Notes under the pieces: model-generated
The model's input: the letters and a program-made list of their open reading frames with translations, nothing else
Told to the model about the DNA's origin: nothing
Database searches by the model: none
Part shown: positions 27,563 through 51,539 of the stretch, one piece after another
How the letters are laid out: every line of letters begins with the position of its first letter
Numbering within the stretch: position 1 is the first letter of the stretch
Position numbers and translations under genes: made by a program
Origin: Bacillota bacterium
GTDB lineage: Bacteria; Bacillota; SHA-98; UBA4971
Reading direction: 5' to 3'
DNA: 64,000 nucleotides
NCBI GenBank assembly: GCA_030024085.1
Contig: JASEJE010000009.1
Location: 1 to 64,000 of the forward strand

Positions 27563-27679
27563 CTAGAAGTCCGCTCCAAAACCCGTCGCTCTTCAGTGGA
27601 CACCACGCTAACACTCCGCGCATCAAGGCGTACAGGACGCCTTGATAGGTTCAGGAGGCGTTCTGGAGCAGGCTTCTAG
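27563..27679. repeat. ~117-bp imperfect palindrome with internal 10-bp perfect hairpin
   Basis: CTAGAAGTCCGCTCCA...TGGAGCAGGCTTCTAG ends; inner ATCAAGGCGT-ACAGG-ACGCCTTGAT at 27622-27646. Confidence 0.75.
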
Positions 27680-28284
27680 TACTACTTTGTCAGATACGAA
27701 ATGCCACCCGGCCTCGTGGGCCTGGCGGGCTTGTCTGGCATGGCGACTCCTCGCCCCGGTGGTCCTTGACCGTGCACTCCCTGGAGGACCCGTGATGTAC
27801 GGAACGCGTAAGGTGGAAGTAGTGATATACGTCAGCAGTTGGATTCGACGCGTGACGAAGAGAACGCGTAATGCCAGGACCAGTGATGTACATCAGTCGA
27901 TCGTTCCCAATGATGACGTAGGGAACGGCTCAGGAGGAATCCGTGATGTGCGTCACTCGTCCCGGCTCGACGAGTGACCTATGGAACGATGCATGGAGAA
28001 CCCGTGACGGAGGGAACGGATAAGGCGGGAACGATGACGCACGTCACCGATTGGCTCCTGATGCGTGACGTGCAGAACGGGAAGAGCCTGACGAGTGACG
28101 TAGGTCACGCGTCCCCTGGCACGTGTGACGTTGGGAACGGGTAGGGCCGTGACCAGTGAGGTACGTCACCCGATAGCCCTCAATGATGACATAGGGAACG
28201 CTTAACGAAAAACCCGTGACGTACGTCAGCTGTCAGCTCAAGCGACGGCAGTACCAGGAGATCCATACGTAACAGAGTAGTACT
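27677..28284. mobile_element. ORF-less element with short terminal inverted repeats and phased palindrome array (copy 1)
   Basis: Ends AGTACTACTTTGTCAGATACG / rc AGTACTACTCTGTTACGTA; TGA-motif starts at 27793, 27823, 27853, 27884, 27914, 27944, 27975, 28005, 28035, 28066, 28096, 28126, 28157, 28187, 28217. Confidence 0.8.
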
Positions 28285-49741: not shown

Positions 49742-49890
49742 CTAAGCCCATTTTCCGCATTAGGAGCGCGGCTAAATTGACAAATGGCCTGCTGAAGGGC
49801 CAGTTGCCGGGGTCCTCCAACTGTTTTGCGACAGGTGACCATTGCGTCCTTTAGCTGGGAAGACGTTTCTACTGCGGAAAACGAGCTAAG
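49742..49890. repeat. CTAAG-bounded imperfect palindrome (149 bp)
   Basis: CTAAGCCCATTTTCCGCAttag...ctacTGCGGAAAACGAGCTAAG; inner GGCTAAA/TTTAGCT. Confidence 0.8.
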
Positions 49891-50020
49891 TAAGGATGCA
49901 GGAGACTGTTGATTTCCTCCACTTTATGGCAACGCAGCTCGGTGGAATCCCGGAAAACGGTTGCCGTCCACGGCCAAACTGGTAGCTACTAGGGAAAATC
50001 AACAGTCTCATGCAGAATGC
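49886..50020. repeat. Second palindromic repeat sharing the CTAAG end of the first
   Basis: CTAAGTAAGGATGCAGGAGACTGTTGATTTCC ... GGGAAAATCAACAGTCTCATGCA; partial copy at 15357-15400 (gagaaatcaacggtctcatgaaaccttacttag). Confidence 0.75.
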
Positions 50021-50123
50021 TCTCGACTTTGGGAGGGGCTCGCGGTGACTCAAAAGGAAAGAGTGCCACACCGCGAGCCCTGTAGCTGCGACAAAACCCG
50101 GAGGAATTAGCGAATCCTCACCT

Positions 50124-50828
50124 AGGACTGCTCTGTCAGATACGAAATGCCATCCGGTTTGGCGGGCCTGGCGAGCTTATCTGGCAGGGCGACCCCTGGC
50201 CCTGGTGGCCCTTGACCGTGCAGTTCCCAGGAAACCCGTGATGTACGGAACGGGTGCCGCAGAAAGAGTGATGTACGTCAGCAGTCGGTTTCTATGCGTG
50301 ACGCAGGGAACGGGTAAGGCCGGGACCGGTGATGTACATCAGCGGATGGCTCTCAATGATGACGTAGGGAACGGCTCAGGAGGAACCCGTGATGTACGTC
50401 ACTGGTCCCGCTTCGACGAGTGACGTATGGAACGATTCATGGAGAACCCGTGATGCAGGGAACGGGTAAGGCGGCAACAATGATGTACGTCACCGATTGG
50501 CTCCCGATGCGTGACGTATGGAACGGGAAGAGCCTGACGAGTGACGTGCGTCATCCTTCCCCTTGCATGTGTGATGTAGGGAACGGGTAAAGCCCGGACC
50601 AGTGATGTACATCAGGGGATGGTTCTCAAGCGTGACGCAGGGAACGGTTGAGGAGCGACCCGTGACGTACGTCACCCGTCGGCTCAAGTGACGGTGCTAT
50701 TGTGCTACGTATGCATCCCTTGGCAAGACTGCGCTGTCAAAGGCCACCAGAGCAAGGACTTGGTCCATCAAATGGGCTTGCCAGACCCGCCGAATTGGAT
50801 AGCATTACGCATCTGGTAAAGTAGTATT
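50124..50828. mobile_element. ORF-less element with ~50-bp imperfect terminal inverted repeats and phased palindrome array (copy 2)
   Basis: Left AGGACTGCTCTGTCAGATACGAAATGCCATCCGGTTTGGCGGGCCTGGCGAGC vs rc right AATACTACTTTACCAGATGCGTAATGCTATCCAATTCGGCGGGTCTGGCAAGC; TGA-motif starts at 50239, 50269, 50299, 50330, 50360, 50390, 50421, 50451, 50481, 50512, 50542, 50572, 50603, 50633, 50663. Confidence 0.85.
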
Positions 50829-51183
50829 AGCACGTGGAGGGAAAGCAGGCACAGGCGAGCAAGTTCGGGCAGCAAGTTCAAGTACGCGGCTGACGCAGCG
50901 CCGCCTGCCGGACGGATGAGGGGTCAGGCGCGTCTGGGGCTCGGGGAGGACGTTTTCCATGAGGCCTTTCATCGATTACAGCCAGCCGTTTGCGTCGCGT
51001 CGCAGCCCGGTCATGGGACGCCGGGGGGGCGGCGGCCAGCTCATCTGGCGCGACTCCGACACCGGCGTGTTCATCTGCGGCTCCGAGCCTCGCAAAGACG
51101 GGTTGGCCGTGGCGTGGTAAGCAAGGAGGGGCGCGCCGTGAGGGGCTGACGCGCCCGCCCGCGCGCCGGCACCTGGTCATAGA

Positions 51184-51415: not shown

Positions 51416-51539
51416 GTTCATCCTACCTCCTACCTCCCACCTTGCACCTTGCACCTTGCGCCTTGCACCTCGCATGTCGGATGTCGCACCTCGCATGTCG
51501 CGAAGCGAGCAACAGGGCACTGAAAGTTTATGCACACCA

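Follow-up and report, generated by a model that had tools for sequence, protein, structure and literature searches.

A dispersed bacterial MITE built around a two-motif array in which indels are depleted relative to substitutions

The window (the whole stretch of 64,000 nucleotides analysed here) holds two copies of a dispersed element whose body is a ladder of fifteen short motifs set 30, 30 and 31 bp apart. Comparison of the copies of this element suggests, at the level of DNA sequence, that evolution protects the geometry of the ladder rather than the sequence between its rungs. The element has the anatomy of a MITE, a non-autonomous DNA transposon, and we think it probable that it carries a helically phased array of protein-binding sites, which would build a regular nucleoprotein structure. 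The structure of the element, its copy number and the conservation of both the motif spacing and the motif cores can be read directly from the genome. In the window, the relevant features are:

27563..27679, plus strand: 117-bp MITE-like repeat, unrelated to the element and adjoining copy 1, with ends CTAGAAGTCCGCTCCA...TGGAGCAGGCTTCTAG; used as a neutral control.
27679..28283, plus strand: element copy 1, complete, with flanks ctag/ctgg.
27680-27698 and 28264-28282: TIRs of copy 1, TACTACTTTGTCAGATACG and CATACGTAACAGAGTAGTA.
27792..28229, plus strand: array of copy 1, with the same 15 motifs and spacing as copy 2.
50125..50827, plus strand: element copy 2, with flanks cTAg (50122-50125) and tTAg (50827-50830) and a chimeric right end.
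50126-50144: left TIR of copy 2, GACTGCTCTGTCAGATACG.
50126..50237, plus strand: 5' arm of copy 2, about 112 bp without P or G motifs, aligned to the other copies.
50238..50675, plus strand: 438-bp array of copy 2, with 15 motifs in the order GPGPGPGGPGPGPGP and a repeated 30-30-31 spacing.
50676..50827, plus strand: 3' side of copy 2, beginning as a normal 3' arm and continuing as the right half of an L059-type short element.
50808-50826, minus strand: right TIR-like sequence of copy 2, TACTACTTTACCAGATGCG.

Two kinds of unit, G and P, make up the array. TGA and GGAAC are almost invariant in the G unit (GTGAYGYANGGAACG), and TGA and TCA in the P unit (GTGAYGTACRTCA). P is a palindrome, TGA-N6-TCA, and G has the same left half-site with GGAAC on the right. 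The motif starts given for copy 2 in a preliminary description of this DNA (TGA at 50239, 50269, 50299, 50330 and onward to 50663) are exact; in our family profile, which also takes in the G before TGA, each unit starts one base earlier. As was also described, copy 1 repeats the series 22.4 kb away (27792-28216), with the same order of G and P and the same central G-G doublet. The units score 18-26 bits at a threshold of 8, compared with at most 13.4 bits for scattered matches elsewhere in the window, which excludes a chance origin. The exact P core is almost confined to arrays.

The extra base that lengthens the third interval to 31 bp follows every third unit, P or G alike, and the true period is therefore 91 bp. 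Arrays of more than 15 units contain 18 or 21 and take the form (GPG PGP)(GGP)n(GPG PGP), in which n is 2 or 3 instead of 1; the array grows in three-motif steps of 91 bp. In the orthologue of locus L010 in genome G002, exactly 273 bp, or three periods, have been deleted. Arrays are also mosaics, in which pairs of units have been swapped between equivalent positions of the 91-bp frame with the rhythm kept; in L005/L006, units 1-2 resemble units 10-11.

The two copies in the window had been described as differing by substitutions without indels, and a constraint on spacing had been put forward. Alignment bears out the observation, and the wider family supports the constraint. All 21 full-length copies in this genome share the order GPGPGPGGPGPGPGP and are 74-100% identical (median 82%); 20 of them keep the exact 30-30-31 spacing and the remaining one carries a 2-bp deletion. 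Frequent indels in other copies, which would be unexpected under a constraint, were not found: only 6 of 530 unit intervals deviate across the 39 arrays of this genome. Pairwise p-distance is 0.117 in the motifs, 0.240 in the spacers and 0.221 (5') and 0.231 (3') in the arms, meaning that the spacers evolve as fast as the arms. It is 0.235 in a second MITE family, which comprises the 117-bp repeat at 27563-27679 and ten relatives. The ratio of indels to substitutions, proposed in the preliminary description as the measure of constraint, is 0.0017 in the array versus 0.041 in the arms and 0.049 in this independent family of equal divergence, i.e. about 25-fold below the controls.

Among non-overlapping closest pairs, indels and substitutions number 0/410 in the array, 7/220 in the arms and 3/75 in the second MITE family (array versus both controls, Fisher p = 1.8e-4), these contrasts being few and the copies sharing ancestry and being partly mosaic. 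The depletion of indels is seen on terminal branches too. Here, singletons (changes unique to one copy) comprise 1 indel to 175 substitutions in the array versus about 11 to 94 in the arms (p = 1e-4). Singleton substitutions are also 3.5 times rarer in the motif cores (0.0065) than in the spacers (0.0228). The 22-24 aligned copies were selected for long arrays, and the arms, of which the 5' arm collects indels among copies, hold short direct repeats that perhaps raise their indel rate; the second MITE family and the count over all arrays partly answer both points. Judged from these alignments, the spacing constraint appears strong but not absolute, and very old arrays in other species carry some indels.

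In the genome itself (3.11 Mb in 65 contigs, 95.7% complete), a DNA search gives 54 matches, and a profile of one P-G pair adds arrays to a total of about 39 dispersed loci. The profile is present in 7 of 398 genomes of the phylum, five of them among the six genomes of the genus and the remaining two in two further families of the class, one apiece; a profile search found no arrays in the congener G005 or in the sister genus. The arrays of the other families are without these TIRs, have another P/G order and keep the 30- and 31-bp steps with some indels; their lack of TIRs fits decay and also an independent host function. Among 84,980 species genomes scanned for the exact P-G pattern, the single match was Firmicutes bacterium UBA6811, on a contig matching genus member G002, so that the organism belongs to a thinly sampled class of Bacillota; the viral contigs scanned gave no matches. 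L080, in species G004, shows 28% spacer divergence over 528 bp with zero indels, and L105, which has lost its 5' arm, shows 36% in the spacers versus 4% in the cores. The arrays of species G001 are more decayed (spacers 43-44%, cores 13-24%, several indels). L002/L073, the sole informative orthologous pair, has 6 differences in 438 array bases, with the full alignment of 2,111 bp containing 19 mismatches, counts by which selection in place is neither shown nor excluded. In genome G015, a solitary CRISPR-repeat-like sequence, GTCGCGCCCCACGCGGGCGCGTGGATTGAAAC, lies about 120 bp upstream of an array (L081:1780-1830).

Full copies of about 604 bp consist of a 112-bp 5' arm, the 438-bp array and a 54-bp 3' arm. 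TIRs, RTACTRCTYTGTCAGATACG ... and its complement, bound most of them, the right end of copy 2 being chimeric. Comparison with L059, together with the alignment of 3' arms, places the switch in copy 2 at about 50699, from where the sequence follows the right half of a related element of about 125 bp to a terminus at 50826, with TTAG. Short elements of about 122-147 bp with the same TIRs and other interiors are found at L057:735-890, L058-L062 and L113, and one such element has been fused into the right end of copy 2. The copies, at about 39 array loci, are many, dispersed, short and non-coding: none overlaps a predicted gene, and a coding sequence was rejected because stops interrupt every one of the six frames in the 22 array copies tested. 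Their flanks are YTAR/YTAR, with TA on both sides in most copies and outer bases that often differ between left and right; L002, L008 and L021 have CTAG or CTAA on both sides. Since the outer bases often disagree, target duplication is uncertain, and a 4-bp YTAR duplication was dropped in favour of insertion at TA within YTAR, which is the simplest reading of the flanks.

The 117-bp family has CTAGAAG ends, and copy 1 adjoins its CTAG end; L021 likewise adjoins CTAGAAG sequence. These two cases suggest that insertions are nested at CTAG/YTAR sites. An inverted-repeat element of about 120 bp (window 49890-50015; GCAGGAGACTGTTGATTTCC ... GGAAAATCAACAGTCTCATGC), probably another MITE, lies just upstream of copy 2, and tandem repeats of the heptamer CACCTTG lie downstream of it (window 51425-51480). 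When the joined flanks of copy 1 were used as an empty-site query, they matched only another repeat family elsewhere, the left flank itself being a repeat.

A search with PF13546, PF01609 and PF13358 in six genomes of the genus, drafts that may lack identical long repeats, found no autonomous partner with these TIRs, and neither did a search for long TIR pairs. A TIR-like match in L116, within a reading frame, was put down to chance. A facing pair of arrays on contig C27 was rejected as a composite element, the translations of the intervening frames containing no recognisable transposase. The array was also rejected as a CRISPR array, as two repeat types alternate and the spacers are homologous between loci rather than locus-unique, and as a partition site in a single cluster, given about 40 dispersed loci with varied neighbours.

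We propose that the element is a non-autonomous MITE of about 604 bp, with the array as its body, which would insert at TA within YTAR with transposase supplied in trans. Each G or P unit would be bound by a protein that is sequence-specific and probably dimeric. Three units with a mean length of 30.33 bp make up the 91-bp period, about nine helical turns, which would give every site a constant rotational position relative to the others and let the bound proteins form one regular structure. Substitutions in the spacers would be neutral, while an indel of one base would rotate all later sites out of register and would thus be selected against. Spacers that tolerate substitutions and not single-base changes in length over 438 bp, with RNA and coding functions disfavoured, point to DNA-protein geometry. 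From these patterns we infer protein binding, nucleoprotein assembly and a benefit to transposition. The structure is somewhat more likely to serve the element, by end pairing or by enhancing transposition, than the host; for a MITE, a role in transposition is the more economical explanation. Retention by the host is possible, since the cores are conserved on terminal branches and also in copies truncated at the 5' end.

This last point leads to an alternative that we consider possible though rather unlikely, in which the host has domesticated the element for architectural purposes. Here, nucleoid-organising sites, arranged as an array of phased bends for an architectural protein of the CRP/FNR type or of another kind, would have been spread by transposition and kept by selection on the host. 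Conserved cores and spacing on terminal branches would fit this, as would old copies that are without one end and keep their cores (L105, L040). The patchy spread, with the congener G005 and the sister genus free of arrays, argues against it, as does the array divergence between the L002/L073 orthologues, which is no lower than that of the flanks. The P unit fits the GTGA-N6-TCAC half-site layout of CRP, reading GTGA-N6-TCA(C), and a Crp homologue encoded in the genome (L151:6520-7212, minus strand) has RETVxR, the pattern of CRP, in its recognition helix. Unlike CRP/FNR sites, however, the arrays have a conserved central GTAC and asymmetric G units, and similar sites are lacking outside them, where GTGA-N6-TCAC is not enriched. 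Full-length strong Crp matches are missing from the array-less sister genus g2, which would be in favour of a link, but Crp also occurs in array-free genomes; phylogeny alone may explain its absence from that genus (G006-G012 versus the rest of the class). The identical 12-mer TGATGTACATCA appears in passages of a paper on E. coli FNR and of one on the nirB promoter (PMC4214427, PMC4216584) and counts for the host-architectural reading. We take the CRP/FNR layout and the Crp homologue as a lead only; the G units do not fit.

Another possibility, which we regard as unlikely, is that the arrays form a transposon-dispersed, helically phased, chromatin-like coil that is retained by the host and would organise the chromosome at about 40 places. 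In this case, the three-site module of 91 bp would be indivisible and expand only as a whole.

It seems to us improbable that the array is an orientation-dependent regulatory element, with the G units acting as ECF-sigma -35-like elements or as operator arrays toward a downstream gene. GGAAC hardly varies across all the G units and is what ECF-sigma promoters usually carry as their -35 core. Arrays between co-directional genes, as called by a custom gene finder, lie with transcription in 19 cases and against it in 4 (p=0.0026), or 12:3 (p=0.035) under stringent calls, which require strong scores for both neighbours. The 19:4 bias is not expected of a scaffold that serves transposition alone, and it leaves suggestive room for regulation. 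An initial bias (left gene on the plus strand in 14/15) became smaller once the gene model was improved and the flanks were lengthened, and was set aside. Yet eight tandem promoters need no rigid spacing over 438 bp, distances to the downstream gene range from 12 to 1632 bp, and the array has no sigma-70 or terminator signal.

That there is no constraint at all, and that recent duplication or gene conversion (concerted evolution) removed the indels, is very improbable. Unit mosaics such as L005/L006 do count in favour of this reading. The recent duplication raised in the preliminary description does not agree with copies that are 74-90% identical and lie at many dispersed sites. Stronger homogenisation of the array is countered by spacers as diverged as the arms, with the array alone free of indels, and the second MITE family of equal divergence has a normal indel rate. 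Least probable is a structured non-coding RNA of repeated hairpins: the P palindrome could fold and the folding energy is below that of column-shuffled alignments, but the covariation term is about zero on both strands (-0.24; +1.7/+0.4 in a second test), an Rfam search gave no match, and RNA loops tolerate indels whereas the array spacers tolerate substitutions only. An association between P positions 5 and 10 (p=0.001) vanished within units (Mantel-Haenszel z -0.3).

A phased protein-binding array can be compared with several known systems. Regular protein assemblies are nucleated by arrays of the parC/ParR and ParG type, and the present array resembles these in consisting of phased direct repeats, with assembly here a prediction. 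Those arrays occupy one locus per replicon beside partition genes, whereas here about 40 copies are dispersed with no linked gene. Within transposons, subterminal arrays of binding sites are known as the TnpA sites of plant Spm/En and the TnsB sites of Tn7. The THAP sites of Galileo form another transposon binding-site array (PMC3688188). The present element has in common with all three several short protein-binding motifs (here putative) inside a transposon, some of them as inverted pairs. In those systems, however, the sites lie at or near the ends, whereas here 15-21 sites at strictly fixed intervals form one central array that fills the element, with motifs unlike the TIRs.

The closest known analogue is BrickBuilt, a minisatellite-bearing MITE of Porphyromonas gingivalis (PMC4596501), and the present element appears to be of that kind. 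In the passages of that article used here, BrickBuilt is likewise an intergenic bacterial MITE with a leader, internal direct repeats and a tail, no internal transposase, expansion and contraction by whole units and a limited host range. Its repeats are 23 nt long, strain ATCC 33277 has 19 of the elements, and their TIRs match resident elements of the IS5 family (PMC4596501). In contrast, the element described here alternates two motif types in a 30-30-31 rhythm and expands by 91 bp, and the searches for a parent IS found none. Those passages make no mention of a spacing constraint, which is measured here. For the combination of a two-motif grammar, a 91-bp module and protected spacing, a search of the open-access literature gave nothing closer than BrickBuilt.

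Bacterial MITEs are usually treated as inert passengers, and here the comparison with two neutral controls suggests that the interior of such an element is selected for geometry over sequence. If a regular nucleoprotein complex does form, the family would offer a natural test of how the phasing of binding sites is kept up over more than 400 bp, and would be a bacterial equivalent of those eukaryotic transposons that contain arrays of binding sites in their interior. Because the array grows by a fixed 91 bp, the idea of phasing can be put to the test.
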